64,000 nucleotides of DNA from a virus. Below the pieces are notes generated by a model, which was not told the origin of the DNA, made no database searches, and saw only the letters and a program-made list of their open reading frames with translations. Positions 5,318 through 61,624 of the stretch are shown one piece after another. The translations under genes were made by a program, and so were the position numbers. Within the stretch, counting starts at the first letter, position 1; every line of letters starts with the position of its first letter. Location of the stretch: the IMG/VR virus record IMGVR_UViG_3300028592_000004, positions 124,001 to 188,000 of that record, one strand, 5' to 3'.

Positions 5318-5335
5318 TCAATCCTCGGGTATTGA
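5318..5335 (-). promoter_or_regulatory. Shine-Dalgarno in hairpin loop
   Basis: On the minus strand, TCAAT-ACCCGAGG-ATTGA forms a 5-bp stem. The 8-base loop carries GAGG, and the ATG follows one base after the stem. Confidence 0.55.
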
Positions 5336-5336
5336 C

Positions 5337-6818
5337 CTACTGACACTCGATTCCGACCGTCCGGATGCCCACGATGTCGTCCGCAGCGAGAGCGGGAGCG
5401 GAATCCGCCAACGGCTCTTGTGCCGGCCCGATATCGAGCTCGTCGTTGTCAGCAATCGTAGCAGAGTCGCTGAGTTCGGGCATCTCGATGATCACGAGCA
5501 GGTAGTTGTGCGGTGGAACGATCCGTCGCAACGATTTCGTCCATTGCAGTCCCACCCCGGCGCCGAGGCTGCCACAGCGAACCTTCAGCAGCAGCGCGTT
5601 GTTGGTCAAGACGTTCTGGACCAGGAACTCCAGTGGATTGACCGTTGCCGGCAGCGTCAGGGCACTGGGCGGAGTCGTGGGTTCTTCCCGTGTATCGAGG
5701 AGGCCGGCCAGGGTGTAGCCGTAAGCGTCTTCCTTGGATTCCAGATGTCGCCAGAAGCGGTCCACATCCAGCGGGTGACCTCCCAGGTGGAACCTGACCC
5801 GCACGGTCTCCTCGGAGTCGTCGATGAGCAGCGGCACGTTCCGGTTGAAGAACAGCAGCGAGTCGTTGTAGCCGCCCGGTAGCAGATTCCTGTCCAGGCT
5901 GATGCAGGTGACGTCCGGAACGGCCTTTCGGTTCAGCTCGAACAGCTGGACCGTGTCAACCAGGAAGCTCCCCGCCGGCAGGACATCCCCGACCGAAACG
6001 GCGGGTGTCGCGTTTTTGGGGAGCCTGTAGGCATGTGCGGTTGTCGCGATCACGAGGTGATCCGTCATCACTTTGACGACTTCCACCGTCTCTTCCGGTT
6101 CCCGGGTGACCGGGACGCCCGTGATGGCGCTAACCGTCTCCCGCAGGGTCTGGCTGGAGGAGCCGCCGGTCAGGGAGTCCATCAGACCGTTCACGAGGCC
6201 CTTGTAGGCGTCGCTGGAGGGGGCCTGGACGCCCAAGACGTAGCCGTAGTGGCTGTAGAGCGTCTGGACGTCTTCCTGGGCCGCGTAAGCCCACAGGACG
6301 ATCTGCCAGTCGGTCTGCTCGCCGGCCTCGTTGTAGATCGGCAGCCGCGGGATCCGGTCGTCGTCGAAGGGGTCTGTACGGAAGGTCAGCAGGGACCCGT
6401 CGTAGGTGTAGTCCAGCCCGGAGGTCCAGAGGACGGTCGGATTGACCTGCTGGGTCGTCAGGAACGGAAGCGCGGCCCACCGTCCGACGCTGAACGTCAG
6501 TGGGTTGCCCGTGGTTGCTCCCAGGAGCCCGGGAGCGTTCCCTAGCTCTCCGGCCGCACCAAGGAGGTAGGGCACAGCTCCAGCGTCGCTCTGACGTAGC
6601 CGGATCGGAGTCCAGTTCTGACGCCGCAAGACCGGGCAGGTGAGCCGGCTCTGGGTGTCGAACATCTCCTTCGAAGCCTGGGCCGTCTGCAGGTAGGCTT
6701 CTGCGACAGCGGTGGCGTAGGCCAACACCTCGCCCCGACCTTGGAAGGTATGGGACCAGAAGCTGCCGATCAGGCCCGGGAGGATCTCCGGAGTCTGCAG
6801 TTGATTCTCGGGATACAC
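5337..6818 (-). CDS. Putative baseplate/tail protein
   Basis: A 493-aa protein that begins with GTG at 6818 (GGAG six bases upstream). It lies two bases from the end of the baseplate J-like gene, as baseplate wedge partners of J often do. The start MYPENQLQTPEILPGLIGSF and the following alpha-helical region resemble tail-end proteins that pack against J, but no specific family motif is visible. The C-terminus overlaps no other gene once the downstream start at 5316 is used. Confidence 0.55.
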   Translation of the reverse strand: MYPENQLQTPEILPGLIGSFWSHTFQGRGEVLAYATAVAEAYLQTAQASKEMFDTQSRLTCPVLRRQNWTPIRLRQSDAGAVPYLLGAAGELGNAPGLLGATTGNPLTFSVGRWAALPFLTTQQVNPTVLWTSGLDYTYDGSLLTFRTDPFDDDRIPRLPIYNEAGEQTDWQIVLWAYAAQEDVQTLYSHYGYVLGVQAPSSDAYKGLVNGLMDSLTGGSSSQTLRETVSAITGVPVTREPEETVEVVKVMTDHLVIATTAHAYRLPKNATPAVSVGDVLPAGSFLVDTVQLFELNRKAVPDVTCISLDRNLLPGGYNDSLLFFNRNVPLLIDDSEETVRVRFHLGGHPLDVDRFWRHLESKEDAYGYTLAGLLDTREEPTTPPSALTLPATVNPLEFLVQNVLTNNALLLKVRCGSLGAGVGLQWTKSLRRIVPPHNYLLVIIEMPELSDSATIADNDELDIGPAQEPLADSAPALAADDIVGIRTVGIECQ

Positions 6819-6819
6819 G

Positions 6820-8469: not shown

Positions 8470-8472
8470 GGA

Positions 8473-10099: not shown

Positions 10100-10100
10100 C

Positions 10101-20806: not shown

Positions 20807-21319
20807 CTAAGCACCGGCGCCGGCGCCACCAGCGATGTTCCCGGCCGCGGCTGCACCGTTCAGGTCGAGGCTGACGAACATCATGGTCAGCGTCTCGTTG
20901 ATGAGCATGTTCATGGCTTCGACCGTGACGGCGATCGAGGTGATCACCGCGTTCTTGATCGAGAACCGCATGCCCTGGAATTCACCCTGCGAGTTACAGC
21001 CGGCGTCCACCTCGAAGTTGAGGTTGTTCGTGGCAGCGTTACAGACATTGCCGAACTTCGTGTAGAACCCGACCTGGATGGCCCGGGGGCCGAGCACGCG
21101 TCCAAGCTGGATGTTCCCCTGCGTACGGCCGGCGACCAGATAGGTGAACTGGGTGCCGATTTCGTACAGCCGGGTGATGTTCTGCACGTAGTTGACGGAG
21201 ATCTGCTGGGTGAGCAGACCAACGCCGGTCACGTTGTTGTTGCCGCCGAAGACGACACGGGCCGCGTCCGCTGCGAACGAGCCCTTGTAGTCGTTCCCCT
21301 GACGACCGTAGATGTCCAT
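20807..21319 (-). CDS. Tail tube protein
   Basis: A 170-aa protein directly downstream of the sheath, the normal sheath-tube order. It has the size and beta content of gp19-like tubes, with the strand-rich GVGLLTQQISVNYVQNITRL and the later MLINETLTMMFVSLDL. A Gly/Ala tail (NIAGGAGAGA) ends it. It has its own hairpin-loop Shine-Dalgarno and lies between two terminator hairpins, so it is probably expressed at high level as a separate unit. Confidence 0.8.
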   Translation of the reverse strand: MDIYGRQGNDYKGSFAADAARVVFGGNNNVTGVGLLTQQISVNYVQNITRLYEIGTQFTYLVAGRTQGNIQLGRVLGPRAIQVGFYTKFGNVCNAATNNLNFEVDAGCNSQGEFQGMRFSIKNAVITSIAVTVEAMNMLINETLTMMFVSLDLNGAAAAGNIAGGAGAGA

Positions 21320-21326: not shown

Positions 21327-21340
21327 TGACCTCCGTGTCA
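21327..21340 (-). promoter_or_regulatory. Shine-Dalgarno in hairpin loop (tube gene)
   Basis: TGAC-ACGGAG-GTCA is a 4-bp stem extendable by a T-G and a T-A pair. The loop is ACGGAG and the ATG lies seven bases after the stem. Confidence 0.6.
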
Positions 21341-21420: not shown

Positions 21421-24207
21421 TCAGATGACCAGGTACGTTTCGATGTTGTTCAGCGGGTAACCGATCGTGAGGTTGATCACGATCACGACGCGGTCCGGAA
21501 GGATGTCGTGGGCTTCGAGCCGGACGATTTCCCCTTCGATCAACTGACCGCCGAGCCGCTCGACGAACCCGTTCGCCTTGAGGAACTCGATGCAGTTCAG
21601 GACTTCCACCCGCAGGAGGGACAGGGTCCCCGGAGTGACGTTGCTGATCCCGATGTACGGCGAGAGCCGACGCCGGAACAGGTAGGAGATCGAGTCGACG
21701 TTCGAGACGACCTGCTCTTCCCGGGTGTTGACGTCGGTGTTGTCCGTCGTCAGCGCGTGCCGGGTGTAGACCGTGCCGTCCCGGCCGGCGGTGACCACCC
21801 ACGTGCCGGCTTCCGCCATCGTGTTGAGCTGCGTGCTGTTGAAGTAGCTCGTCGACCGCGGAACCGAGTCGAATCCGGTCACGGGCAGGTTCGTCAGGCC
21901 CTGGTGCGGCACGACGCCCGACCGGAGGCCGGCGAGCGCGGCTGCCAGGTAGTACCCGGCGACTTCCAGGCCACCCGAGATGACCGTATCCGGCCAGACC
22001 ACCTTGACCCGGCGGTTGCCGAAGGAACCAGCCTGCTCGCCGACGTTGGCAGCAATCTCGTTCTTGGTCATGGGGTGCCAGATCTCGATCTTCTCCGGCG
22101 AGTTGATGGCCGAGGTGTGTCCGGAGACGAGCTTGATCGTCTCTTCGTTCGGGATCGAGTCGATCACGAACTCCTCGTACGTCTGCTCGCCGAACGACGT
22201 GCCGAACAGCATCCGGACGATGTCGCCCGGGCGGGCTCCCAGTTCGAGCACCGACGCGTTGCCGGAGCTGACCTGGAGGAGCGTGTACTGGGTGCCGTCC
22301 GAATCCGGGTCGTCCACCAGGGTCGCCAGGACCTCTTCTTCGTCGCTGGACGTCGCGGCGCTGACCTTGACGGTTTCCGTCACGGCGGCGACGTTGAAGA
22401 ACGCCGCCCGCCACCGGCCGGCTTCGGCCGACGACTGCGAGTTGACGTGCCCAGCGAACAGGTTCTGGACCGACCGCGACTGCGTCATCGGGGCGAGGTT
22501 GTAGACGTCTTCCCGGCCGACGAGCAGTTCCAGGGCTTCCGCCCAGCTGTCGTCTTCGTCCGGCTCGGCGATCCCGACGCCCTTGACGGCAGTGCCGTTG
22601 GCGTTGGCGAGGGCCTTGTACATCCCGTACTTGAGCGGGTTGTCCGGGTGGATCGGGCCGGAAACCTGATCGTTCAGCTCGTCTTCGTCGACGGCCGAAA
22701 CGACGTCGCTCGCAAGTTCCGAGCGCCAGGCCCGGTACTCGACGAACAGGTCCCCGGAGGTGATCACGACGGGGATCAGTTCCCCACCGTCCGTCCAGGT
22801 GGTGTCGTAAGCGACGATCCCCGAGTTGACGGTCAGCTGGCTCTGGGAGACTTCCCAGTTGACGAGCGGATCGTACCCGGCGCGGTTCTTGTCGATTTCC
22901 AGGTCCTTCAGCAGGTAGATCTGGAGGTCGAGGTCTTCCGCTTCATCCATTTCGCCCGGCAGGTTGTGGCCGAGGACGAGCGTGCTCATCCGGCCTTCCG
23001 CCTGCGCGGTGACGTCGATGAAGTAGATGTCCCCCTTACGGAGGCCGACGACCGGATCCAGGAGCTGGGTGTCTTCGTCGACGCTGGAGCTCTCGGCGCC
23101 GCCACCGTAGAAGGTGATCGTGACGCCCTTCGTTCCCACCGCCACAGCCACGTTGTCACCGGTGACGTTGACCGGACCGTTGCTGGCGTCGACACCGTGG
23201 ACCGTGCGGACCGTGACCTGGGGCCGCTTGTCTTCGTCTTCGTCGTCGAACTCGCCGCCGCGGGTGACTTCCACGATGTAGGTCGTGTCCCGCGCACCGC
23301 TGTAGGTCCCGCCGGAGACCGCGAGGGCCTGCTCGAAGGCGGACTGAACGACGACGCGGTAGACCGTCCCGACAACGAGGTCGGCGGCACCGGTGAAGCT
23401 GATCCGCAGACCGCGCTCACCGACGTCGAACAGCGAACCGTTCGTACCGGGGATCAGCTCGTCGTCTTCGTCCAGCCCACTGGCGGTCGTGACCTTCAGC
23501 TTGGCGGTCGTGTGGTCGTCATCGACCGAGCTGGCGGTGACCGTGATCGTGTAGGTGTCGTTGATGTATCCGTCGACAAGCCCGTTGTAGTTCGCGGCGT
23601 TCGCGGCGAACGTGACACCCGGCGAGCTGCCGGAGACCGTGCTCGTGGTAGCCGAAACGTTCTGGTCTTCGGGGTTGGCTTCCGCCAGCTCGACTTCACC
23701 GACCGTCGCCGCAACGGCTTCGCCGACGATGTCGAGGACGTAGGTGTTGAGTTCGAACTCGTCACCATCGGCCACGCCGCGGAGGTAGACCCGGTCACCA
23801 CGACGAACGTCGCGGTCGTAGAGCTCGGTGATACGGGCGTAGTCGCCGTTCTGGGCGAAACCACCCGACCCCGCCCGGCGGATCCGGTTGCGATAGCCTT
23901 CGACCGGCGCGACGATCTCGTCGGCGGCGATCAGGTCCTCGAACAGGACCAGCTTCGCGTCTTCCATGAAGAGCTTGACGTACGACTCGTCGATCGTGGA
24001 TCCCACCGGCTTTGTGGGCCAGGCGTAGGATTGGTCATCGTCAGCGTCGTACGCACCCAGCGCACCCAGGCCCTTTTCGTCGGCCTCGGCGTACCGAAGG
24101 AGATACGCGTGCGGCCCTGCGATGAGAGCGCGCAGCGGATCAGTGATTTCGGCCGGAACCAGGTTGAATTCCTGGAACACCAGGGCCTGCGGAACGATAT
24201 AGGGCAT
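21421..24207 (-). CDS. Tail sheath protein
   Basis: A 928-aa protein. The N-terminus (MPYIVPQALVFQEFNLVP) and the C-terminus (RLEAHDILPDRVVIVINL, then YPLNNIETYLVI) match the strands contractile sheath subunits use to link neighbours. A long acidic beta-rich insertion (about residues 150-450, with a DEDEDKRP stretch) makes it longer than T4 gp18 and probably forms surface domains. It is followed by the tube gene. The start has ACGGAGG in a hairpin loop. A terminator follows the gene, consistent with high separate expression. Confidence 0.85.
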   Translation of the reverse strand: MPYIVPQALVFQEFNLVPAEITDPLRALIAGPHAYLLRYAEADEKGLGALGAYDADDDQSYAWPTKPVGSTIDESYVKLFMEDAKLVLFEDLIAADEIVAPVEGYRNRIRRAGSGGFAQNGDYARITELYDRDVRRGDRVYLRGVADGDEFELNTYVLDIVGEAVAATVGEVELAEANPEDQNVSATTSTVSGSSPGVTFAANAANYNGLVDGYINDTYTITVTASSVDDDHTTAKLKVTTASGLDEDDELIPGTNGSLFDVGERGLRISFTGAADLVVGTVYRVVVQSAFEQALAVSGGTYSGARDTTYIVEVTRGGEFDDEDEDKRPQVTVRTVHGVDASNGPVNVTGDNVAVAVGTKGVTITFYGGGAESSSVDEDTQLLDPVVGLRKGDIYFIDVTAQAEGRMSTLVLGHNLPGEMDEAEDLDLQIYLLKDLEIDKNRAGYDPLVNWEVSQSQLTVNSGIVAYDTTWTDGGELIPVVITSGDLFVEYRAWRSELASDVVSAVDEDELNDQVSGPIHPDNPLKYGMYKALANANGTAVKGVGIAEPDEDDSWAEALELLVGREDVYNLAPMTQSRSVQNLFAGHVNSQSSAEAGRWRAAFFNVAAVTETVKVSAATSSDEEEVLATLVDDPDSDGTQYTLLQVSSGNASVLELGARPGDIVRMLFGTSFGEQTYEEFVIDSIPNEETIKLVSGHTSAINSPEKIEIWHPMTKNEIAANVGEQAGSFGNRRVKVVWPDTVISGGLEVAGYYLAAALAGLRSGVVPHQGLTNLPVTGFDSVPRSTSYFNSTQLNTMAEAGTWVVTAGRDGTVYTRHALTTDNTDVNTREEQVVSNVDSISYLFRRRLSPYIGISNVTPGTLSLLRVEVLNCIEFLKANGFVERLGGQLIEGEIVRLEAHDILPDRVVIVINLTIGYPLNNIETYLVI

Positions 24208-24211: not shown

Positions 24212-24227
24212 AATGCCTCCGTGCATT
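24212..24227 (-). promoter_or_regulatory. Shine-Dalgarno in hairpin loop (sheath gene)
   Basis: AATGC-ACGGAG-GCATT is a perfect 5-bp stem with the Shine-Dalgarno in the loop. The ATG lies four bases past the stem. Confidence 0.65.
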
Positions 24228-27419: not shown

Positions 27420-28268
27420 TTAGTACCCGTAGGGCGATCCGAACGTGCTGTACCCCATCTGGATGTTGATCGACACCTTCTTGTTGGCGACCCACTTCTT
27501 GTACTCTTCCCACCGCCGCTGGCCCTCCAGCAAGTAGGGCTGCTCGCGGCCGAGATCGTTGACGACGATCCCGCCGGCTGCGCGGTTTTGCGTGTTCCGC
27601 CGGTAATGCTCCGCGGCCATGAAGCACAGGTTCGCGACGATCCCTTCCAGCCAGTGATAGCGGTACGGGAAGTTCGTCGTGTCGTAGGTGCCGATCGGCG
27701 GAAGCGATTCATTCCAGTACATGACCGGCCGGCCGATGGCCGCGCCGATTTCGGCCAGGTCGAAGTCCAGCTCGTCGATCAGATAGTTCTCGTCCGGCAT
27801 GCTGTCGCGCATGTGCAGCCGGATCTCCGCTTCAGTCGGCGGACCGGTCATGTCGCCAGAGCCAGGCGTCGGGTCGACGTGCAGGTAGAACTGATAGCCG
27901 GCGACCGTGTCCTCGTCGTTCTGGATGAGGATCTCACCCATGAAGACACCGGCGTCACGGGTGTGGGTGGCGTCCAGATCAAACTGAACGACGCCGTTCG
28001 CCGCATCCGTGACCCAGGCATCTAGGGTCGCGATGGTGCATTTGCCGACGCTCTCAACGATCGCGACCTGCAAGCTGGCGTACTCGGCGACCGAGATGGA
28101 CTCTTCCGACAGTCCGTACTCGGTCAGATCTTGGGGGTTCCCCTCGTCGTCGCGAACGACAACCTCGACGGTCACCTTGTGACGCTGACCGACCTTGATG
28201 GCCGGGATGCGGCCGACGAGAGGAACTCCGTGACGGGTGACGCTCGTCCGTGTGCGTCGAGTGGGCAT
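27420..28268 (-). CDS. Putative head-tail adaptor / neck protein
   Basis: A 282-aa protein. The N-terminal half looks like a beta sandwich (RHKVTVEVVVRDDEGNPQDL). The C-terminal half is helical (NYLIDELDFDLAEIGAAIG, then WLEGIVANLCFMAAEHYRR), resembling head-completion adaptors. It lies between capsid and tail genes. The Shine-Dalgarno AGGAG is in a hairpin loop. Role inferred from order. Confidence 0.5.
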   Translation of the reverse strand: MPTRRTRTSVTRHGVPLVGRIPAIKVGQRHKVTVEVVVRDDEGNPQDLTEYGLSEESISVAEYASLQVAIVESVGKCTIATLDAWVTDAANGVVQFDLDATHTRDAGVFMGEILIQNDEDTVAGYQFYLHVDPTPGSGDMTGPPTEAEIRLHMRDSMPDENYLIDELDFDLAEIGAAIGRPVMYWNESLPPIGTYDTTNFPYRYHWLEGIVANLCFMAAEHYRRNTQNRAAGGIVVNDLGREQPYLLEGQRRWEEYKKWVANKKVSINIQMGYSTFGSPYGY

Positions 28269-28269: not shown

Positions 28270-28284
28270 CTGGTCTCCTACCAG
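28270..28284 (-). promoter_or_regulatory. Shine-Dalgarno in hairpin loop
   Basis: CTGGT-AGGAG-ACCAG is a perfect 5-bp stem with a 5-base loop; the ATG begins one base after the stem. Confidence 0.65.
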
Positions 28285-30399: not shown

Positions 30400-31326
30400 T
30401 TACGCGAAGTCGGCCCGGGCGAGACCGCCGGTGTGGCCGATCGTGGCCCCGCCGGTCTGGTAGCAGAAGAACTCGATCATCCAGTACTCACGCTTGACGT
30501 ACATGGCAACCGGTTCGAGTTCGAAGTGCTTCCCGATGAACTTCGGGTTGGCGAACATGTACATCGAGTCGTCGGGAACCAAATCCCGCTTGATCGTCAC
30601 GATGAAGTTCAGACCCATGAAGTTCCGCTCGGTCCAGCCGTTCTTCAGGATGTCCTGGGAGATATCACCCCCCATTTCATCCCGGCCCCACTTCTCCATC
30701 TCCTTCGCGGTGACCATGTTGATCAGAGCGGTCTCGGCTTCGAGCCGGGACGGCGTCCGATTCATGATCTTCTTCGCGTCCTGGACGGAGTCGCGGGTGA
30801 TACCGCCGCTGACGGTTTCCCACTGGGGGACGCCGGAAGCGTAGGTGTTCTGGTCGGCACCGACGAGCGCGGTGTTGACGGCCGCGAGGAACTTGGAGTC
30901 CTCCTCTGCCATCATGTCCTTGAGGGAGTTGTCACTCAGCACCTGCCGAATGTCCATCTCCCACGTGCGCAGTTCGTCGACGTCCTTCGAGAACCGCGGC
31001 GTCACGATACGCTGGAACGTGACCAGGTAGCGGGGACCGCGGATGTAGACGCCGATCGGGTTCGTGGCGAACGGCACGCTGATCGACATCGGCGAGCCGG
31101 GTTCCTTGTCGATGACCTTCGAGGGCTTGTCCGTGTAGACCTGCCGATCGAGCTCATCGTTGGTGATGGTGAGCGGCGGCATGATCTTGCGATAGAAGCC
31201 GTCTTCACGCATCGTCGTCCGGGTGAAGTCGTTGACCGCGTCAGCGGCCTGCTTCTCCATCCCAGGGGTCCGCAGGTGCTCGAAGAACCGTTCGTTGAGC
31301 AGCTGCGTTTCAGAACGAGTGGCCAT
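30400..31326 (-). CDS. Major capsid protein (HK97-like fold)
   Basis: A 308-aa protein. After an N-terminal helical region (MEKQAADAVNDF) it shows the strand-loop pattern of HK97-type shells, with an E-loop-like segment before the long spine helix (LRTWEMDIRQVLSDNSLKDM). It ends in an A-domain-like stretch (GLNFIVTIKRDLVPDDSMYM). It is preceded by protease and scaffold genes and followed by a strong terminator. The ATG at 31326 has GGAGG in a hairpin loop and is preferred over a GTG four codons earlier. Identity rests on pattern and order. Confidence 0.75.
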   Translation of the reverse strand: MATRSETQLLNERFFEHLRTPGMEKQAADAVNDFTRTTMREDGFYRKIMPPLTITNDELDRQVYTDKPSKVIDKEPGSPMSISVPFATNPIGVYIRGPRYLVTFQRIVTPRFSKDVDELRTWEMDIRQVLSDNSLKDMMAEEDSKFLAAVNTALVGADQNTYASGVPQWETVSGGITRDSVQDAKKIMNRTPSRLEAETALINMVTAKEMEKWGRDEMGGDISQDILKNGWTERNFMGLNFIVTIKRDLVPDDSMYMFANPKFIGKHFELEPVAMYVKREYWMIEFFCYQTGGATIGHTGGLARADFA

Positions 31327-31332: not shown

Positions 31333-31348
31333 ACACACCTCCGTGTGT
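31333..31348 (-). promoter_or_regulatory. Shine-Dalgarno in hairpin loop (major capsid gene)
   Basis: ACACAC-GGAG-GTGTGT is a perfect 6-bp stem with a GGAG tetraloop; the ATG is six bases past the stem. Confidence 0.65.
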
Positions 31349-31395
31349 GATTGTTGGGGATCAGGGTTTGCCCGATCGCTTATCCCGGGGCGGGA

Positions 31396-31980
31396 TTAGG
31401 CGATGGTCGGGAGCCAGGTGGGCCAGAAGCTGAGGACGCTGACGCCGTGGGCGTTCGTCGTCACAGCGCGGGAGACAACACCACAGATGTTGTCCGTGCC
31501 CGAGGCGATCGCGGCATTGCTGCCGCCGGTCCAGCTCTTCCGCTTGTACAGAAGACCGGCCTCGTCTTCGTTGCCGCCGCCGACTTCCGACTCGTCCGGC
31601 GAGTGCAGGAGGTCGTTCGGGGCATAGGCGTTGCCGCCCGATTCCGCCTTGAACTCGGTCGTCTGGAGCTCGTACGGCCCGAAGGCGACGAGACCGGACA
31701 TCTTCCCGTTCGGGGCGATCGGGAACCAGTTGTTCCCGCCCGGGTTGCTGACGTCGAAGTCGTCCGCCCGGTTGTGCAGGAAGATCGCGACCTGCTTACC
31801 GGTGGCGCCGGGCATGAACTTGCCGGCGGAGTCGAGGTGAACGACCGAGCCACCGTAGACATTTTCCTTGGTGACGTCGGCAGAGAGGAAAGCATCGAAG
31901 TCGAGCGCGGTCTCACTCGGCCACCCCTTGAGGTAGTCGAGTGCGTGCTCGTACATCTGCTCGTACATTTCGCGGGCCAT
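31396..31980 (-). CDS. Capsid accessory (decoration) protein candidate
   Basis: A 194-aa protein starting MAREMYEQMYEHALDYLKGW and then beta-rich with Gly/Asn loops. It lies immediately upstream of the capsid gene and shares its CACGGAGGTGT leader, so comparable expression is likely. A decoration or cement role is inferred from order, size and expression signal. Confidence 0.55.
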   Translation of the reverse strand: MAREMYEQMYEHALDYLKGWPSETALDFDAFLSADVTKENVYGGSVVHLDSAGKFMPGATGKQVAIFLHNRADDFDVSNPGGNNWFPIAPNGKMSGLVAFGPYELQTTEFKAESGGNAYAPNDLLHSPDESEVGGGNEDEAGLLYKRKSWTGGSNAAIASGTDNICGVVSRAVTTNAHGVSVLSFWPTWLPTIA

Positions 31981-31988: not shown

Positions 31989-32000
31989 ACACCTCCGTGT
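31989..32000 (-). promoter_or_regulatory. Shine-Dalgarno in hairpin loop (capsid accessory gene)
   Basis: ACAC-GGAG-GTGT is a 4-bp stem with a GGAG loop, nearly the same leader as the major capsid gene. Confidence 0.55.
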
Positions 32001-32039
32001 GATGTTGTTGAACAGTCCGTGTTCGTTCTCAGCAGGGCC

Positions 32040-33873: not shown

Positions 33874-33886
33874 GTCACTCCTTGAC
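33874..33886 (-). promoter_or_regulatory. Shine-Dalgarno in hairpin loop (scaffold-like gene)
   Basis: GTCA-AGGAG-TGAC is a perfect 4-bp stem; the ATG is seven bases past the stem. Confidence 0.55.
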
Positions 33887-38608: not shown

Positions 38609-39022
38609 TTACGGGTGCGTAATCGTCGTGGAGTATCCGAACGTCTTCGCGTCACCGGCTCCGGCGGGCTTGATGTACAGATACAGCTTCCGCTGGTTGT
38701 CGGATTGCTTGTCGCCGGTCAGGCACATGTAGGCGTGGCCATTGGCTTCCAGCAGGATGCCAACGGCATTCGTACTCGTCACCGTGACCTTCGCACCGAT
38801 CTCAAAGAGTTCGGCCTGAGCGAATTCAGTGCCCTGCGATCCATCGGCGTTGTAGATGGTGTCCTTCTTAAACACACGGAACTCGAAGCCGTCGAGGTTG
38901 CCACTGAGCTGCTTGACGGCAACACGGTGGACATACCCGCGGCTCGGGACGCCGAGTTCGATCACTTTCCCGGCAGCCGGCACAGTCACGACTGCGGGAC
39001 GAACGTCATAGGGAACAGACAT
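38609..39022 (-). CDS. Small beta-rich virion protein candidate
   Basis: A 137-aa protein, beta-rich (VVTVPAAGKVIELGVPSRGY), of a size typical of decoration or head-fibre proteins. The ATG follows a hairpin leader, and the upstream stop lies two bases away. Function from composition only. Confidence 0.5.
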   Translation of the reverse strand: MSVPYDVRPAVVTVPAAGKVIELGVPSRGYVHRVAVKQLSGNLDGFEFRVFKKDTIYNADGSQGTEFAQAELFEIGAKVTVTSTNAVGILLEANGHAYMCLTGDKQSDNQRKLYLYIKPAGAGDAKTFGYSTTITHP

Positions 39023-39024: not shown

Positions 39025-41493
39025 TTATCCTTCCGTGGACAGGCTCAGATCGATGCGCTGGTCGGGCACCGCCTGGATGGCCTTCTGCTTGAGGAACAGG
39101 ACCAGCTCACCCGTCTGGTCGAAGGTGCTGGAAAACGCATTCTCCAGCTCGTTCATTTCGTTTTCGCCGTACCGCTCCTGGAACTTTTCCGGGTTCCAGT
39201 AGAACACGAGCAGCAGCCGGCCAATCCGGTCCATCCCCTTCATAATCGGACCGATATGCCGGTCGACCAGCTGGTCGTCGCGGGTCGACTTGAGCAGCGT
39301 CGAGATGACGCTGGTGTCGAAGACTTCCCGCTGACCGCTCTGGGCAGCCTGCTGCACGTACTGCATCATGCCCGGTTCGGGACCCTGAAGCTGGTACGCG
39401 TCCCGCGAAGCCTGATGATTCGGCTCCATTGAGTCAACGGGAAGCATGTCGGCCTGGGAACCATAGGTCGGCATGTTGCCGCCCATGACCCCGTCGAACC
39501 GGGCGTCCATCGGCGGAATGGACGGGGCGGTGACCGTCTGCTCGACCCCGTACGGGTTGGCGTACTTGATGCGGAGGTTCAGACCGCGGTGATGCAGGTT
39601 GAAGGCGACATCGGCGCGCTTCACCAGCTCGCGGGCCGTCGCTTCGCGGAGGCCGTGGTTGACGATCAGGTCGAAGCAAGCCTGCTTGGCCGGCATTCGC
39701 TGGTTGTTGATGACCGCTTCGCAGCCATCGCACCAGATCTTGAGCTGACTGGCTTGCTTCATCATCTCGAACTGGACGTCGAGCAGGTTCCCCGGGCGGA
39801 TCGGCGGCGGATCGCTTTCGCCTGTGTCGGCGCCGGCCATGCACGGGCTACAGTCCTTGCCATACTGCTCTTCCCAGGACTTCCGGTGCCGGACCTTGAT
39901 GATCTTCGTGTCGTTGGGGACGGTGACATCGCCCTTGTTCGACCGGAAGGTGATTCCCTTCTTGTCCGACAGGTGCAGGCGTTCCCCATCGGTGTACTTG
40001 TCGTAGCCCTCATGATCGTCGTAGGGCATGCCGGAGTAGTTGCGGCCGAGATTGAAGGCCGGATCTTCCTTCGAGCAGTACGAGTCGAAGTTGACTTCCC
40101 ACGACTTGCCGGCATCGGACGTTCCGAGGGACCGATCAACGGTGAACGGGAGCGTGGCGCTCCCGGTTGCGTTGATGGCGATGTACTCGCTGCGATCGCT
40201 CGACTCAGGCGACGAATCGCTCTGCTCTTCGACCCACTTCTCGAATTCCGACTTCGGGTAGTACTTCGTCGTGTAGAGATAGGAGGCGTGGATGTTGAGC
40301 CAGTTACGCTCGCTGGCACCACTCCCCGCGCGGATCACGGTCGCGAACCGCTTCCGGCCGTTGCCACTCATCGGGTGGATGATGACGACGCACTTCTCGA
40401 CGGAGCCTGGCTTGACCAGGACGTCATACAGCCCGGTCTCGGTCGGGGTCTCGAACGTTTCCTTTTCGCGAACTTCGTAGACCTTGGAGATCTCGTCGTC
40501 GTCGCGGTCGTCCACGACGAGGGAGCCCTCCGCGGCCAACTTCTCCCGCTGCTCTTCGGTGAGCAGGAGGGACGGCTGGGCGAAGTTGTTGAAGCGGTGG
40601 ATCGAAACCGAGCCCCGCTTGACGAGCCCGTCCAGCAGCGACTTCGGGTTGCCGCTCTGGGATTCTGAGCGAACGACCTTCGGCGAGGGCGGCGCGGAGC
40701 CGGTGACCTTGTATTCGCAGCCGGCGGTCTTCATCGGCGACCGCGACTTCGCCTCTTCGAACATGTCGTAGAGGGAGTCGTGCGTGTACTTGTCCCGGAC
40801 CGGGAAGCGATCGACGGACTGCTTGATGTGCGCGAAGGCGTCAGCGAACTCCTCCGGCGCGTAGAACTTGTCGAGCTGGGACTGCAGATCCGGGAACTTG
40901 TCTGCCGCCATCTTCAGGAGATCAAGCATCTCCAGACCGCCATCCTTGAGCAGCTCGGGCAGATGGACCGTCCCGTCGAGCGGATTGGAGGTGGCGTGCT
41001 TGTAGAGGCAGCCCACGGCGTCGAGCGCCCAGGGCGGCATCGCCGAGCCGTACTTCGAGGGTGACTGGGTGAACTGCGACAGGGAGGGGCGCAGCGTCTG
41101 CCGCGAGGCCTCGCCCTTGTCGATCCCGTTGCCGAGGATGATCGGCTTCTTGTTCAGGATGTAGTTGATCCAGTTCTCTTTCAGCGGCACGAACATGTCC
41201 TGGTTCTTCAGGTACAGGAGTTCGTGCCCCTTCAGGTCCCCGTCGATGAAGAACACCGGAGCGTAGAGCCACTGGGAGCCGACCTTAAACGCGAAAATCC
41301 CGACAGCGCGGGTATCATCTTCGTTCCGGTCGATGAGCTGGAAGCCGACCTCGTAGTCGAGGAGCTTCGGGGCCTTGTCCGTCAAGTAGGAGTGGGCCAG
41401 CGACGAAAATGCCTGCTCGAACGGGACGTCGTTCCCGGCTTCCGAGGCCCGCTTGATGTTCCGAGGCGTCAAAGTTTGAGGCATTGCACCCAT
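39025..41493 (-). CDS. Large protein of unknown function in the head/RNAP cluster
   Basis: An 822-aa protein with a mixed fold. It has a CSPCMAG and a later CDGCEAVI motif (possible zinc site) and a helical C-terminus (MDRIGRLLLVFYWNPEKF). It follows the beta'-C gene. Candidates include a virion protein or an RNAP-associated subunit, but nothing decides. The ATG at 41493 is taken as start; a second ATG at 41484 has a slightly better GGA upstream. Confidence 0.5.
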   Translation of the reverse strand: MGAMPQTLTPRNIKRASEAGNDVPFEQAFSSLAHSYLTDKAPKLLDYEVGFQLIDRNEDDTRAVGIFAFKVGSQWLYAPVFFIDGDLKGHELLYLKNQDMFVPLKENWINYILNKKPIILGNGIDKGEASRQTLRPSLSQFTQSPSKYGSAMPPWALDAVGCLYKHATSNPLDGTVHLPELLKDGGLEMLDLLKMAADKFPDLQSQLDKFYAPEEFADAFAHIKQSVDRFPVRDKYTHDSLYDMFEEAKSRSPMKTAGCEYKVTGSAPPSPKVVRSESQSGNPKSLLDGLVKRGSVSIHRFNNFAQPSLLLTEEQREKLAAEGSLVVDDRDDDEISKVYEVREKETFETPTETGLYDVLVKPGSVEKCVVIIHPMSGNGRKRFATVIRAGSGASERNWLNIHASYLYTTKYYPKSEFEKWVEEQSDSSPESSDRSEYIAINATGSATLPFTVDRSLGTSDAGKSWEVNFDSYCSKEDPAFNLGRNYSGMPYDDHEGYDKYTDGERLHLSDKKGITFRSNKGDVTVPNDTKIIKVRHRKSWEEQYGKDCSPCMAGADTGESDPPPIRPGNLLDVQFEMMKQASQLKIWCDGCEAVINNQRMPAKQACFDLIVNHGLREATARELVKRADVAFNLHHRGLNLRIKYANPYGVEQTVTAPSIPPMDARFDGVMGGNMPTYGSQADMLPVDSMEPNHQASRDAYQLQGPEPGMMQYVQQAAQSGQREVFDTSVISTLLKSTRDDQLVDRHIGPIMKGMDRIGRLLLVFYWNPEKFQERYGENEMNELENAFSSTFDQTGELVLFLKQKAIQAVPDQRIDLSLSTEG
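39026..39041 (-). promoter_or_regulatory. Shine-Dalgarno in hairpin loop
   Basis: TGTCC-ACGGAA-GGATA is a 5-bp stem with one G-U pair; it serves the gene at 38609-39022. Confidence 0.45.
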
Positions 41494-43483: not shown

Positions 43484-43725
43484 CAGAACCCTACGTCGGA
43501 CAGCGTGGGTGCGTCACGGTGACGGATTTGCACTTCCGATCGGTTGAGGCCCAGGTTACCCAGTACCTGCTCGAACCGAGGATCTTCAAAGGTGTAGGCC
43601 TGGACCAGGCCGTCTGCGAGTTCGATCGCAACCGCCACGATGGTTCCCTGGCGGTTGCGAATCACGACGCGACGAGCTTCTGCGACCTGGGGCTCAGCCA
43701 GCTTTTGGAAAAACTCGATCTGCAT
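43483..43725 (-). CDS. Small protein between split RNAP parts
   Basis: An 80-aa protein, beta-rich (RRVVIRNRQGTIVAVAIELA) with a short helical end. CAAGGAG is upstream of the ATG. It is coupled to beta'-C by a TGATG overlap. It could be a small RNAP-associated or assembly factor; not recognised. Confidence 0.5.
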   Translation of the reverse strand: MQIEFFQKLAEPQVAEARRVVIRNRQGTIVAVAIELADGLVQAYTFEDPRFEQVLGNLGLNRSEVQIRHRDAPTLSDVGF

Positions 43726-44494
43726 TACCGAGGCTCCTTGCGAGTGCCGCCAGGTTTGCCATCGACTGGGCCGGCGTCAAGGAGGACGCGGACTTGCTGA
43801 CCGAGGAACCGATTCCCTGGTAGTCGCTCGCCGTCTTGCCGGCAGCCATTCCAGGGGCGGCACCCTGGATCGGGTCGATGGGTGGAATCGCACTGGGCTG
43901 ACCGCCTGCGGCAGCCGCCGGGTCCATCCCCGCAGCGGCCGGATCACCGGCCGGAAGAGCTCCGGCCTGATCCTGATTGGCCATCTGCATCTGCATCGGA
44001 TCGGGCGGCGGGCCGAGGGCCACGTCCGCCGGGATCGGGATCTGCATGTGGTTCATGATCTCGGCGACCATCCGCATGATCTGCCAGAGCTTCGTGTCGA
44101 GGATGGCCGGGTCGACCTTCTTCGTGGCCGGCTTGCCCATGCCGGGCATCCCGCCGGTGCCGCCCGCTCCGCCTGCTCCGCCCATCATCTGCATGGCCTG
44201 AACGACGGCCTGGACCATCGCGGGATCCGCTTGGCCCCCTCCGCCGCCCATCGGAGGCCCGGCGAGGGGATCGGCCGGCATTCCACCGCCCGGAGGCATT
44301 CCAGGGGCTCCACCCGGCGCCGGCGCTCCACCCATCGCGGCCGGATCACCACCCGGCGGCATACCCGGGGCACCGCCCGGAGGGGCTCCACCGCCAGGCG
44401 GCACGACCGACGCCTTGAAGAACGGCTGTGCCTGACCGGGGTTGTTGGCTTCGTGCTGAGCCAGCTTGAGAATCGTCGGGTTGAGCAAGCTCAT
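43694..44494 (-). CDS. Gly/Pro/Met-rich protein between split RNAP parts
   Basis: A 266-aa protein. Residues 30-120 and 165-225 are Gly/Pro/Ala/Met low complexity (GGAPGMPPGGDPAAMGGAP). A short helical centre lies between them (LWQIMRMVAEIMNHM), with a helical C-terminus. The composition matches the scaffold-like gene at 32505, suggesting a virion or scaffold-related role although it lies inside the RNAP operon. A weak hairpin leader (44497-44510) holds AAGGAA. Confidence 0.5.
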   Translation of the reverse strand: MSLLNPTILKLAQHEANNPGQAQPFFKASVVPPGGGAPPGGAPGMPPGGDPAAMGGAPAPGGAPGMPPGGGMPADPLAGPPMGGGGGQADPAMVQAVVQAMQMMGGAGGAGGTGGMPGMGKPATKKVDPAILDTKLWQIMRMVAEIMNHMQIPIPADVALGPPPDPMQMQMANQDQAGALPAGDPAAAGMDPAAAAGGQPSAIPPIDPIQGAAPGMAAGKTASDYQGIGSSVSKSASSLTPAQSMANLAALARSLGNADRVFPKAG

Positions 44495-44496: not shown

Positions 44497-44510
44497 CGGC
44501 TTCCTTGCCA
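44497..44510 (-). promoter_or_regulatory. Shine-Dalgarno in hairpin loop (weak)
   Basis: TGGC-AAGGAA-GCCG is three G-C pairs and one G-U pair around AAGGAA. Confidence 0.35.
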
Positions 44511-50817: not shown

Positions 50818-51216
50818 TCAGCTCCCGGGGGTCCAAATCGGGCTCCTCGGTACGAGGCCACCCATGTAACGATTATGGTGTTTCATCTGCCTCATGACAC
50901 CAGGTTTGAACGGATCTCCCTGTGCGTCGGCCTGCTGACAGGTTAGGATCATATCCTCGACGCACTTCTGCATCTCTGCCTTTTCTTTCGGGCAGGTGGA
51001 GCGATCCCGGCTCTGCCGGATGGCGTCCGCTCGCAGCAGGAACTCAGCGCGGGACGCAGTCTTGAACTCCCCGTCCCGTTCGTCGAGTGTTCGCAGCAGG
51101 CCGCGCTCCGCGAAGAACGTGATCCACTTGTACCGGAAGATCTTTCGGTTGGCTCCGCCTCGAATCTGAAACGGAGCTGCAGCCAAAGCACGTGACAGGC
51201 GACCGCGATGGGCCAT
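50818..51216 (-). CDS. Hypothetical basic protein
   Basis: A 132-aa, very basic protein (MAHRGRLSRALAAAPFQIRG, then RKIFRYKW) with a helical centre and two Cys. The hairpin-loop AAGGA is eight bases before the ATG. The frame extends upstream but through the protease gene, so the ATG at 51216 is used. Confidence 0.5.
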   Translation of the reverse strand: MAHRGRLSRALAAAPFQIRGGANRKIFRYKWITFFAERGLLRTLDERDGEFKTASRAEFLLRADAIRQSRDRSTCPKEKAEMQKCVEDMILTCQQADAQGDPFKPGVMRQMKHHNRYMGGLVPRSPIWTPGS

Positions 51217-51219: not shown

Positions 51220-51233
51220 AGCAATCCTTTGCT
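51220..51233 (-). promoter_or_regulatory. Shine-Dalgarno in hairpin loop
   Basis: AGCAA-AGGA-TTGCT is a perfect 5-bp stem with an AGGA loop. It overlaps the stop codon of the upstream protease gene. Confidence 0.55.
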
Positions 51234-52135
51234 TACCGAACGTGGAAGCGGCCTTTCCGGGACCGCTGATAAGTCGGAGGAGGGGAGTAACGTGGAGCCG
51301 CCTGGAGCTGGGGAGCCTGCGGCGGCAGTACGAACTGCGTCTGTTCGACCGGACGTGGCGCCGGCATCGGAGCCTTCTCAACCTGGGCGGGTGCAGTCTG
51401 CCCGTCCCGGATGATGACATCGGCAACTGCCCGTTCGGCCTGCCGTGTCCGGTGGCTCTTGTACTTCGCCATCGCCAGGAACTCGTTGAGCTTCGTGACC
51501 CGGGAGTACATGCCGTACTTCGGATTGGCGGGCGGCTCGCGACCGATGCAGATCCCGATCAGCGTGCCGGTCGGACTGAACAACCCGCCGCCGGACTCTC
51601 CGGACGTCGGGATGTGGTCGACGATAATCGCCGTGTCGTCCGTGACGATCTTGCCTTCGTTGTCCAGCCAGAGTGCCTTCCGGGCAAGCCATTCTTTCGG
51701 CTGGACGCCGAGCGGCGATCCAACCGCATGAACGACGTCACCGACACGGGGAACCCACTCCCGGTCGTCGACGTGGTCGACTGCTTTCAGACCGAGGTTG
51801 CCAGGCCCCGTGAGAAGCTGGGTGTCGTACTGGCTACTCTGCCCGATCACCGACATCTGTGCCTGGTTGGCGAAGTCCTTACCCCACTGGATGGTGTAGC
51901 GGGTGTCGTCCGAGGGGAGCTTCGCGGACTCGAAGTGAAAACAGGTCGAAACCAGGGTTCGCTCTGGGCTCGATTCGAGCACAGTTCCGGACCCGTAGTG
52001 CTCGTGATTCTGAGTGAGGTTCTGGTACTTCACTCGAACTGCAGCCTCGATCGGCTTGACGTCCGGAGCGATGTAGACCTGCCCACCGCAGACGGCCCCG
52101 AAGATCGACAGAATGATTGGCGCGATATGAAGCAT
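51233..52135 (-). CDS. Exported trypsin-like serine protease
   Basis: A 300-aa protein. Residues 1-18 form a hydrophobic signal sequence (HIAPIILSIFGAV). The chymotrypsin-fold triad is visible: H67 in STCFHFE after GSGTVLES, D104 in YDTQLL, and S181 in SGESGGGLFSPTG. The last 70 residues are Pro/Gln-rich and end basic. It probably acts outside the cytoplasmic membrane, perhaps cleaving host envelope or other phage proteins. GGAGG is in a hairpin loop (52140-52153). It is followed by small genes and preceded by a thioredoxin-like lipoprotein candidate. Exported trypsin-like enzymes are rare in phages. Confidence 0.8.
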   Translation of the reverse strand: MLHIAPIILSIFGAVCGGQVYIAPDVKPIEAAVRVKYQNLTQNHEHYGSGTVLESSPERTLVSTCFHFESAKLPSDDTRYTIQWGKDFANQAQMSVIGQSSQYDTQLLTGPGNLGLKAVDHVDDREWVPRVGDVVHAVGSPLGVQPKEWLARKALWLDNEGKIVTDDTAIIVDHIPTSGESGGGLFSPTGTLIGICIGREPPANPKYGMYSRVTKLNEFLAMAKYKSHRTRQAERAVADVIIRDGQTAPAQVEKAPMPAPRPVEQTQFVLPPQAPQLQAAPRYSPPPTYQRSRKGRFHVR

Positions 52136-52139: not shown

Positions 52140-52153
52140 AGTCCTCCGTGACT
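52140..52153 (-). promoter_or_regulatory. Shine-Dalgarno in hairpin loop (protease gene)
   Basis: AGTC-ACGGAG-GACT is a perfect 4-bp stem; the ATG is four bases past the stem. Confidence 0.6.
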
Positions 52154-54356: not shown

Positions 54357-54833
54357 TTAGCCGGCAACGGCCTGACAGGCCGCAGCAAGCTGACGCAGTT
54401 TGAGAACGAACGCAGCCCGGCCGGCGTCATCCAAATCGCCAACAGGGAGCGTACGGAGCCAGGCGTCGACGACGACTGGCAATTTGACGATCAGACCCGT
54501 CTTCAGTCCGATCCGTTCGCGGGCAGTGGCCAGCGCGGAGAGCGCGGCGGCACCGGTCTGGATCGACTTATCCAGTTCGACCGCATCGGCCGCTGCCGTG
54601 TACAGCGAGCAATAGTCGCGGGCCTTAATCTGGTAGTCGGTGAATCCGCTGGTCTGGAAGGCATCGGCGACCTGGGCGTTGAGCGTCGGGTCCGCCGGCA
54701 CAGCCGGATTGACGGGGTTCACCGGGTTGACCGGGTTGACGGGGTTCGGAACAGGCTGCGGACCGGGGACCGGCGGGGCACACCCCACCAGCATCCCGAG
54801 GAGCAGCGCACTACCGAGCAGCTTTCGCGACAT
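54357..54833 (-). CDS. Lipoprotein with Asn-Pro-Val repeats
   Basis: A 158-aa protein with a clear lipoprotein signal (LLLGMLVGC, Cys18). A repeat linker follows (VNPVNPVNPVNP), then a helical domain (DKSIQTGAAALSALATARER). It is probably anchored to a membrane, reaching out through the Pro linker. A hairpin-loop AAGGAG leads the ATG. It overlaps the upstream membrane protein gene. Confidence 0.7.
   Translation of the reverse strand: MSRKLLGSALLLGMLVGCAPPVPGPQPVPNPVNPVNPVNPVNPAVPADPTLNAQVADAFQTSGFTDYQIKARDYCSLYTAAADAVELDKSIQTGAAALSALATARERIGLKTGLIVKLPVVVDAWLRTLPVGDLDDAGRAAFVLKLRQLAAACQAVAG
54706..54748 (-). repeat. 9-base tandem coding repeat (Asn-Pro-Val)
   Basis: Four to five near-identical 9-base units encode the NPV linker of the lipoprotein. 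Slippage here could vary linker length. Confidence 0.75.
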
Positions 54834-55179
54834 TCGACCCCTCCTTGGGTTCGTCGGTCGTTTGGCCCAGGGTCGTCACGACCACCTGGGTCACGGCCTG
54901 CGCGAAGGCAGGCGTGGATTCGCCGGACAGCACCAGGTCAACCTTACGGTCGCCGACCTGGAAGCTGAGCTTCGACTGCGGAACGCCACTCGATCCGCGG
55001 AGAAAGAGCTCCCGCGAGCCAAGGGCGCCGGCGCCGAGAAGCCCGGCAACGATCTGGGCAATGCTGTACCCGGACGTGAGGGGCACACCAGCGTTGGCCG
55101 CAGCGGTGAGGCCGTACGTGGCCTGGGCGGTGAGAGCCGTTCCCACGAGCGTGAGAACAGGCGCGAGGAATTTGAGCAT
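54811..55179 (-). CDS. Small membrane protein, holin-like layout
   Basis: A 122-aa protein with two hydrophobic segments (APVLTLVGTALTAQATYGL at 6-24 and IAQIVAGLLGAGALG at 40-54) and a charged tail with a DRKVDLVLSGE strand. The layout is compatible with a holin but not diagnostic. Neighbours are a lipoprotein and a further small membrane protein. GGAG is seven bases upstream. Confidence 0.5.
   Translation of the reverse strand: MLKFLAPVLTLVGTALTAQATYGLTAAANAGVPLTSGYSIAQIVAGLLGAGALGSRELFLRGSSGVPQSKLSFQVGDRKVDLVLSGESTPAFAQAVTQVVVTTLGQTTDEPKEGSNVAKAAR
54837..54850 (-). promoter_or_regulatory. Shine-Dalgarno in hairpin loop (lipoprotein gene)
   Basis: ACCC-AAGGAG-GGGT is a perfect 4-bp stem with AAGGAG in the loop; the ATG is three bases past the stem. 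Confidence 0.55.
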
Positions 55180-55220: not shown

Positions 55221-55718
55221 TCAGACCGCCTGAGTCAGCTTGCCGCTACGGAAGAGGTTGATCAGCTCGATCACGAGCTGGACGGCGGTGAGAACCGTCG
55301 TCGGGTTGAAGAGAAGCGAGCGCGGCCGGGCTTCCGAGTCCGGAGCGTTCGGGTCGTTCTGCAGCTCCGCCTTGACGGCGTCGACCAGGCTCTCGACGTC
55401 AGCGGCGGAGACCTGATGGTTGTCCGACCGGCGGCGGAATACGCCGTACACGACGGCCGCGGCGGCACTGACGAGCAGCGTCCGCTCCGCGACGAACTGG
55501 GCAAGCGGGCAAACCCGATCGTCCAGCGTCGTCTTGGTCATCGCCGTGAAGGGGCAGACGAGGTTCAGGGCGAGCTGAACCGCAACCTGCGTCCCTTCAT
55601 AGGAGCTGAGGTCCGCGTTGAGCAGCGGAGCCCCGGCGCTGAGGAACGCCGGGAGCTGCGACAGGTCGAGGAAGTTCTGAAGAGTGCCGACAGACTTGAT
55701 CTGTGCGAAGACGTCCAT
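55221..55718 (-). CDS. Hypothetical protein with hydrophobic segments
   Basis: A 165-aa protein with hydrophobic stretches (QVAVQLALNLVCPF, TLLVSAAAAVVYGVF, VLTAVQLVIELINLF). The central part carries a short Arg-rich RRR loop. The ATG at 55718 is chosen because AAGGA lies in a hairpin loop ahead of it (55726-55738). Role unknown; it is part of the membrane/lipoprotein block. Confidence 0.5.
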   Translation of the reverse strand: MDVFAQIKSVGTLQNFLDLSQLPAFLSAGAPLLNADLSSYEGTQVAVQLALNLVCPFTAMTKTTLDDRVCPLAQFVAERTLLVSAAAAVVYGVFRRRSDNHQVSAADVESLVDAVKAELQNDPNAPDSEARPRSLLFNPTTVLTAVQLVIELINLFRSGKLTQAV

Positions 55719-55725: not shown

Positions 55726-55738
55726 CTCATTCCTTGAG
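55726..55738 (-). promoter_or_regulatory. Shine-Dalgarno in hairpin loop
   Basis: CTCA-AGGAA-TGAG is a perfect 4-bp stem; the ATG is seven bases past the stem. Confidence 0.5.
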
Positions 55739-60434: not shown

Positions 60435-60809
60435 CTACTCATCTTCATTGAGATTGGGGACTTCCAGGAAAACACGGCTGACGGATTCAAATGTGATCCG
60501 GATCCAGGTTGGGGTCAGATCTTCGAGGACTTGTGTTCGGTGTTCGACCAACCTGTACACGCAGCGCTCAACTGCGTTGTACAGGTTGTCCTCGGACCGA
60601 ATTGCCTGCAGTCGGTTGACAACTGGGCTCAAACGTCGCATCAATCCCAGAAAGATCTTCTGCAGACGCCTGCCTTCGAGGTCCGACTCGATGGCAAGGC
60701 GGGACAGAGGCTCTCCGCGCTCAACGCATTCCATCACCGCCGCGGTGATGGACATTGCCAACGTTTGCCAGATCAGCCATTCCTGGGTGATCGGCAGCTT
60801 CCTAGCCAT
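60435..60809 (-). CDS. Hypothetical helical protein
   Basis: A 124-aa, helical protein (ARKLPITQEWLIWQTLAMS) with a middle reminiscent of a small winged-helix or sensor domain (LSRLAIESDLEGRRLQKI). The ATG overlaps the metacaspase stop. It is a possible partner or regulator of the metacaspase because of the coupling. Confidence 0.5.
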   Translation of the reverse strand: MARKLPITQEWLIWQTLAMSITAAVMECVERGEPLSRLAIESDLEGRRLQKIFLGLMRRLSPVVNRLQAIRSEDNLYNAVERCVYRLVEHRTQVLEDLTPTWIRITFESVSRVFLEVPNLNEDE

Positions 60810-61605
60810 TGGAGAAGACTTCCCACAGCTGTGCGTACTTCGGTCCCGAGAGGACCGGAGTCTGCGGGCACTCATCACTCGGCAGGTGATTTCGGACGAG
60901 ACGGAACAGATCCCGGTAGGTCGCCTGCGGAGGCAGCTTCGGGATCAGCTGCTGCAGGTAGTACGAGAAGGCACCCTTCGGGCGCCCGTCGAACTCCGTG
61001 TCGAAGGCGAACTCCTTGTCGCTGCAAGCGGACATGCAGACGACCCCCTGCGTCATCCACGCCAGGGGCATGTGCTCTTGCTTGAGGGCGGTATCGATCG
61101 ACTTCTGCAGCCCCTTGAACTGCGGCAGATCGTACGGAGGCAGGAAGCGTTTCTTCACCCGCTTGCCGGGCTTCTTCTTCGGAGCGGACCGCATGACCGT
61201 TCCGGAGTGGCAGCTGTCGGCGATCAGAGCTACCCGAGCTTCCGGCTTGCGGTTCTGGTCGAACAGGAGGTACAGCTCATCGTCCAGAATCAGCTCGTTG
61301 TCGAGGTCGTAGGGGCACCAGGCTTCGTCTCGACCGTCGATCTCATCGCCATCCAAGTCGGGCACCCAGGTCCCGTGGCCGGCGAAGGTGATGATGGCCA
61401 ACTCGTTCGGCCCGGTGGCCTGCAGGAGTTCCGTCAGACCCTTCAGGATGTTGGCGCGGGTGGCCTCCTTTTCGAGCAGAACGTTCTGAACCTGGACACC
61501 TCGCTCGACAAGCAGGGTGGCCCAGTCCTGAGCGTCGTTGACAGCCCCGTAGAGCTCCATCTCCGAGTTGGCGTAGTTGATGCCGATGCACAGTGCACGC
61601 TTCAT
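60802..61605 (-). CDS. Metacaspase (caspase-like cysteine protease, C14 clan)
   Basis: A 267-aa protein. It begins KRALCIGINYANSEMELYG, the first strand and loop of caspase folds. Catalytic H77 is in FAGHGTW and C132 in ADSCHSGT. After the Cys lies a basic stretch (KKKPGKRVKKRF, 143-154), the kind of loop at which metacaspases cleave themselves after Arg/Lys. No signal peptide. The domain is stand-alone and cytoplasmic. AAGGAG is in a 6-bp hairpin loop before the ATG. It could act on host or virion proteins or on the phage's own enzymes. Confidence 0.85.
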   Translation of the reverse strand: MKRALCIGINYANSEMELYGAVNDAQDWATLLVERGVQVQNVLLEKEATRANILKGLTELLQATGPNELAIITFAGHGTWVPDLDGDEIDGRDEAWCPYDLDNELILDDELYLLFDQNRKPEARVALIADSCHSGTVMRSAPKKKPGKRVKKRFLPPYDLPQFKGLQKSIDTALKQEHMPLAWMTQGVVCMSACSDKEFAFDTEFDGRPKGAFSYYLQQLIPKLPPQATYRDLFRLVRNHLPSDECPQTPVLSGPKYAQLWEVFSNG

Positions 61606-61606
61606 G

Positions 61607-61624
61607 ACGTTCCTCCTTGAACGT
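61607..61624 (-). promoter_or_regulatory. Shine-Dalgarno in hairpin loop (metacaspase gene)
   Basis: ACGTTC-AAGGAG-GAACGT is a perfect 6-bp stem with AAGGAG in the loop; the ATG is one base past the stem. It is the clearest example in the window. Confidence 0.7.

Follow-up and report, generated by a model that had tools for sequence, protein, structure and literature searches.

The closest described systems are those in which proteins of the CsrA/RsmA/RsmE family repress translation at hairpins over the ribosome binding site (RBS), as at hcnA of P. fluorescens (PDB 2JPP). The high-affinity target of RsmE, defined by NMR, is A(N)GGAX, the loop being 5–6 nt long and its stem closed by a C-G pair, and the Shine-Dalgarno (SD) hairpin of hcnA carries the loop ACGGAU (PMC4005645); the motif CANGGANG has been used for Rsm targets (PMC6849547). 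The csrA gene is known in about 1% of phage genomes, and R44 of CsrA has the role of a conserved RNA-binding arginine (PMC7366521). Silencing of CRISPR or of other functions in the host has been put forward as the role of phage csrA (PMC8450108), and knock-down of csrA in phage PTXU04, in a paper which says that the role was untested before, gave smaller plaques (PMC11879866). The published proposals consider host genes only, and the PTXU04 plaque defect came without a mechanism. In the openly accessible journal papers searched, no description of phage mRNAs with CsrA-type sites was found.

The DNA analysed here is a stretch of 64,000 nucleotides (the window), positions 124001–188000 of a virus record of 229,210 bases. 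It has 63% GC, and the minus strand carries nearly all of the genes. The gene content is that of a myovirus virion region (tail sheath, baseplate, tail fibre and major head protein), with genes for multisubunit RNA polymerase (RNAP) subunits and a helicase in addition. The major capsid protein (MCP) gene (30400–31326, minus strand) matches phrog_2522 (major head protein; E=1e-5) and was aligned with relatives, while the tail sheath gene (21421–24207, minus strand) matches phrog_279 (E=5e-11). The product of the open reading frame at 51233–52135 is a trypsin-like protease with a weak Trypsin_2 match. That at 60802–61605 (minus strand) specifies a protein with a caspase domain (Peptidase_C14, PF00656; E=1e-24), whose gene lies within the phage virion-gene region behind the strongest of the window's SD hairpins. 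Elsewhere in the record, four tRNA matches were seen (L005 8000–16020, minus strand, near 196–204 kb of the record).

Among the 57 starts of the window, 13 have a stem of at least 4 bp round the GGA of the SD when only Watson-Crick (WC) pairs are counted and the GGA is enclosed in a loop of 4–7 nt. Shuffling of the flanks with the SD kept gave a mean of 3.5 and a maximum of 10, and none of 2000 shuffles reached 13, which is the outcome of the comparison with shuffled leaders that the first-pass annotation had proposed. Stems of at least 5 bp number five at the same starts, against 0.9 in the shuffles. The frequency of stems of at least 4 bp is 21% at RBS GGAs versus 7.7% at other GGAs on the same strand, and it rises to 50% (7/14) at RBSs with GGAGG. 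The motif CANGGANG is extended by at least two further WC pairs in 10 of its 14 copies at window RBSs versus 22 of the 127 located elsewhere (Fisher, 5e-5). When window leaders were folded in isolation, the loop-closing pair had a probability above 0.5 in only 6 of 49 (shuffles: mean 1.3, maximum 4), which counts against the hairpins as binding sites, though a protein can induce folding.

The hairpins cluster among the virion genes: they precede those for the capsid, the sheath, the protease and the caspase-domain protein, the gene that follows the sheath gene, and others. In each, the GGA of the loop is the SD itself and the loop ends 6–12 nt from the start codon; all those listed here are on the minus strand. 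The hairpin before the caspase-domain gene, ACGTTC-AAGGAG-GAACGT (61607..61624), has 6 WC bp and a C-G closed hexaloop located 7 nt from the ATG. That before the MCP gene, CACAC-ACGGAG-GTGTG (31334..31349), is in the CsrA register and has a stem of 5 WC bp which covaries in relatives. The gene upstream of the capsid gene (31396–31980, minus strand) is preceded by CAC-ACGGAG-GTG (31990..32001), also in that register with 3 WC bp, or with 4 bp if the loop is taken as GGAG. This gene is tandemly duplicated in two relatives (L075 and L078), and both copies have their own strong SD. The tail sheath gene is preceded by AATGC-ACGGAG-GCATT (24212..24227; 5 WC bp), and the gene after it (20807–21319) by TGAC-ACGGAG-GTCA (21327..21340; 4 WC bp, 6 with G-U pairs). 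Further C-G closed stems of 4 WC bp are AGTC-ACGGAG-GACT (52140..52153) before the protease gene 51233–52135 and ACCC-AAGGAG-GGGT (54837..54850) before 54357–54833. AGCA-AAGGAT-TGCT (51220..51233), before 50818–51216, also has 4 WC bp and is A-T closed. Three pentaloops occur: CTGGT-AGGAG-ACCAG (28270..28284; 5 WC bp, not C-G closed) before 27420–28268, GTCA-AGGAG-TGAC (33874..33886; 4 WC bp) before 32505–33866, and CTCA-AGGAA-TGAG (55726..55738; 4 WC bp) before 55221–55718. TGTCC-ACGGAA-GGATA (39026..39041), before 38609–39022, is weak, with 3 WC bp or 5 including G-U pairs. TGGC-AAGGAA-GCCG (44497..44510), before 43694–44494, has 3 WC bp plus a G-U pair and a loop pair probability of 0.60.

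The first-pass annotation had placed the SD in a hairpin loop at fifteen starts, and all 15 sequences are indeed present upstream of minus-strand starts. Two members of that set (10099 and 39022) are weak, having G-U pairs or short stems, and the hairpin at 44494 was absent from it. The leaders at 5316 and 38582 (TCAAT/ATTGA and CCAAT/ATTGG round ACCCGNGG) were rejected as hairpins with varied stems, being copies of a recurrent near-palindrome, TTCAATWCCCGCGGATTGAA, which occurs in either orientation and often just 5' of a start. It recurs in G000 at 92289, 98839, 195402, 221813, 35833, 30799, 89533 and 113059, and probably acts as an operator or promoter in the DNA or is a repeated element of another kind. 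A separate TTTTCTTTTG-like tract lies shortly 5' of several SDs, in the window in the leaders of 29531 and 30320, and also in L005 and L119 (G000 203740, 216901 and 226685); it may mark where transcripts start or belong to a phage promoter.

Across all loop sizes and GGA offsets, a single register is enriched in the window, namely the hexaloop with GGA at positions 3–5 (NNGGAN). Such hexaloops with stems of at least 4 bp occur at 8 of the 57 starts versus about 0.25 expected from a background of 0.48% per GGA (binomial, 1e-10), and seven of the eight have a C-G closing pair. The earlier estimate of fewer than one stem expected by chance therefore stands for this register but fails for the loose geometry, where the expectation is about 3.5. 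If G-U pairs and shorter stems are allowed, the window contains 14 CsrA-type leaders, 11 of them hexaloops and three AGGAX pentaloops; all 11 hexaloops start with A and 10 are C-G closed. One of the 11 hexaloops, before 37603, is far from its start and may be due to chance.

The same rule (stems of at least 4 bp) was applied to other parts of the record. At 188–208 kb, 3 of 19 starts had a hairpin, including TGAGC-AAGGAG-GCTCA and ACGC-AAGGAG-GCGT, and at 208–228 kb 2 of 21, including GATGC-TCGGAG-GCATC. At 24–44 kb there was one in 23 starts, which has a loop of seven bases and so is not in the CsrA register, and at 64–124 kb none in 47.

Relatives were sought with the MCP ortholog, on which the tree was also built. 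Alignment of this protein led to 80 IMG/VR loci, most of them 60–71% identical; scans with single proteins (sheath, RNAP, MCP) yielded few. On the capsid tree, one well-supported clade of 72 rows holds all csrA-positive records and nearly all of the hairpins. Among the relatives in this clade the NNGGAN register accounts for 130 of 1310 sites with an ATG and an SD versus about 12 for each other register, one of these (loop of 8) being the same hairpins counted without their closing pair; outside the clade it accounts for 3 of 333 such sites versus 2.2. The closing pair is C-G in 108 of the 130. In the clade, 99% of hairpin SDs have A as the first loop base versus 48% of SDs without a hairpin, and position 2 is T in 42%, C in 36% and A in 18%, the last compared with 40% in SDs without a hairpin. 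An A at position 1 together with a position 2 other than A fits the A-N-GGA of CsrA and is the opposite of what optimisation of the SD would give. The hairpins of the window and of the clade thus have the features of a CsrA/RsmE site, with GGA in a loop of 5–6 nt, a 5' A and C-G closure, and the GGA of the loop coincides with the SD.

The hairpins recur at particular orthologous leaders: those of MCP (52/71), its upstream neighbour 31396–31980 (49/70), the tail sheath (28/42) and, less often, 32505 (18/62), with a frequency of 0–3% at most others. Their stems vary with pairing kept (GGAAC/GTTCC, AAGAC/GTCTT, AGAAC/GTTCT, GCAC/GTGC, GATC/GATC, CGATC/GATCG, AAAC/GTTT and TTTC/GAAA). The four innermost pairs are all WC in 29 of 55 distinct MCP leaders versus a mean of 7.3 and a maximum of 15 when right arms were re-dealt, a test which overstates independence since the leader sequences are related. 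The slid-partner control, which gave 0–2 on the MCP leaders, and the variety of stems are independent of that kinship. For the neighbour gene the corresponding count is 25 of 54. Compensatory change in related phages, which the first-pass annotation had named as a check, is thus present, and its view that different bases with kept pairing reflect selection for structure is now strongly supported by sequence covariation across about 70–80 related phages.

A search of the record with PF02599 gave one match (record positions 91067–91228, minus strand, outside the window; 55.9 bits with a cut-off of 27, E=1e-15). The protein has 63 aa and begins MLVLSRKK. With 45.1 bits it missed the NCBIfam csrA equivalog cut-off (TIGR00202; 70.1 bits), and judged by these profile scores it is a divergent member of the family, not an equivalog call. 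R47 is the equivalent of R44 in E. coli CsrA; R6 is also kept, and both residues are invariant in 20 viral CsrAs. The family profile also finds the chain of RsmE bound to hcnA (2JPP; E=6e-18). An alignment-based AlphaFold model had a pLDDT of 85, the single-sequence model being poor, and its 14 best PDB matches are all CsrA, RsmA or RsmE chains (probability 0.84–1.00), with Foldseek E-values of merely 0.01–0.3, the chain being short. As modelled, the phage protein has the CsrA fold. Its own leader has no CsrA-type SD hairpin, and no Rfam match to a Csr-type sponge RNA (CsrB/RsmZ-like) was found in the 124 kb of the record searched. Among bacteria, Planctomycetota and Deltaproteobacteria have the CsrAs nearest to it, but the search was pattern-biased, for which reason no host is claimed. 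In two relatives a single open frame contains two CsrA domains (G071:82054–82434 and G064:11292–11729), and five others (G069, G072, G074, G075 and G077) have a second csrA elsewhere; the regulator has been duplicated in members of the clade.

Within the clade, csrA is present in 20 of 21 records of at least 190 kb, this phage counted. Outside it, none of the nine relatives with records of at least 160 kb gave a PF02599 match, Vibrio phage D69 and Salmonella phage Arash being among the nine; their leaders are almost devoid of hairpins, the same genes having bare SDs. The independent-pairs test on the capsid tree gave no significant association of csrA with hairpins, and among records of at least 150 kb a hairpin of at least 4 bp at MCP or its neighbour was unassociated with csrA (15/26 versus 7/14; Fisher, 0.45). 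These nulls within the clade arise because fragments confuse the absence of csrA and because the origin is single; the several clade records which have hairpins and no detected csrA are probably fragments. Since csrA and hairpins coincide as one evolutionary event, they count as one coincidence and not as many, and the link need not be causal. A hairpin regulon as a general rule for csrA-bearing phages was rejected: no register spike was seen at 63 csrA loci (±10 kb; the crude ORF caller used also under-called the window) or in nine larger csrA-positive records, one of which (G021) is a relative of this phage. As csrA-bearing phages outside the clade are without the hairpin set, csrA alone does not imply the regulon.

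From these sequence comparisons, the explanation we consider clearly the most probable is that the hairpins are CsrA/RsmA-type sites over the RBSs of virion and assembly genes, with the phage CsrA as their most likely partner. With somewhat less assurance, we think it likely that throughout this clade of jumbo myoviruses the phage's own CsrA controls a dispersed regulon of virion genes via covarying A(N)GGA SD hairpins. A dimer of the phage protein would grip the A(N)GGA loops and cover the SD, and would so block or delay binding of the 30S subunit to virion mRNAs. The capsid, sheath and related messages would be held back and then released post-transcriptionally, or their output balanced or trimmed, with release when the level of CsrA falls or the sites outnumber it. 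Repression is the usual outcome where CsrA covers an SD. The hairpins with their register, covariation and choice of genes are observed, as are csrA and its clade-level co-occurrence with them; we infer binding, the identity of the CsrA that binds (phage or host) and the repressive sign; activation, or control by the host CsrA, is a possible alternative. In this giant phage, a global regulator of bacteria has probably become a translation switch of the phage's own, used in building particles. Sites on the phage's own capsid and sheath messages would make the purpose of its csrA testable with one protein and one leader.

The alternative that survives best, though we think it unlikely, is that the sites are read mainly by the CsrA/RsmA of the host, the phage protein serving host takeover (for example silencing of CRISPR or metabolism) or competing with host CsrA. 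The motif would be common to both proteins, some hairpin-bearing clade records are those without detected csrA, and it is targets in the host that have been proposed for phage RsmA/CsrA in published work (PMC8450108; PMC11879866). Against this, in outgroup relatives lacking csrA these genes have SDs without a hairpin, and csrA is nearly universal in the large records of the clade.

Considerably less probable is that no protein is involved and the loop displays the SD for faster capture of the 30S subunit at highly expressed virion genes. The genes with hairpins do encode abundant proteins and have strong SDs (GGAGG), which would be accessible in the loop. Pairing to the anti-SD, however, favours an A at position 2, the very base that is avoided there, and cannot hold the A at position 1, which lies beyond the mismatch, so that recognition by CsrA fits instead; the single register and the orthologs outside the clade that do without a hairpin also speak against display. 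The first-pass annotation had offered both presentation of the SD to raise or time translation and a phage factor that binds the loop. The second is favoured, given the encoded CsrA, the register, the closing pair and the obligatory A, while presentation to raise translation is disfavoured by the non-optimal position 2 and by the bare SDs outside the csrA clade.

Cleavage by a GGAG-reading endoribonuclease like T4 RegB, inactivating the messages, is very improbable. Although the GGAG of the SD is the RegB cleavage motif, the enzyme has a preference for GGAGRAYARAA, works less well on structured RNA and leaves late transcripts intact (PMC3014915); here the base after GGAG is mostly G, and it is virion genes that carry the sites. 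The RegB family (PF10715) had no match in the genome at E≤1, and with the gene absent and the context wrong this explanation was rejected. Chance hairpins noticed post hoc can be dismissed, for although 3–4 loose stems per 57 leaders are expected and 4-bp stems are weak, the shuffles never reach the observed number, and flanking DNA not seen before and 80 relatives repeat the register and the genes with covariation, which refutes chance provided that the leaders are correctly aligned.

The preferred reading, control of virion genes by the phage CsrA, can be set beside several known systems. T4 RegB also reads GGAG at the SDs of phage mRNAs, as GGA is placed at SDs here, but it has no homolog in this phage, and neither the context nor the structure of the sites fits. 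RegA and the gp43 repressor of T4 resemble the present proposal in that a phage protein acts where translation of the phage's own mRNAs begins, as the MS2 coat protein does at its operator. All of these are unrelated to CsrA, and RegA sites are unstructured and A+U-rich in contrast to the GGA hairpins on virion genes described here. If the proposal is true, these few phage-encoded translational repressors would be joined by a CsrA-based regulon that controls the translation of scattered virion genes, a post-transcriptional late-gene switch of a previously undescribed kind. The likeness is closest to repression by CsrA/RsmA/RsmE at RBS hairpins such as that of hcnA, with which this phage shares the SD GGA in a C-G closed ANGGAN hexaloop, several targets and a CsrA-family protein in the genome. 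It differs in that no sponge RNA was found, that the protein and its candidate targets are both in the phage genome, and that the predicted targets are capsid, sheath and assembly genes. Finally, csrA is phage-borne here as in the phage csrA/rsmA genes already described (Sobrero and Valverde 2020; Campa et al. 2021; PTXU04 gp28, CRISPRi-ART 2025); host targets were proposed in those works, whereas in this clade it is the phage mRNAs that bear conserved CsrA-type sites.
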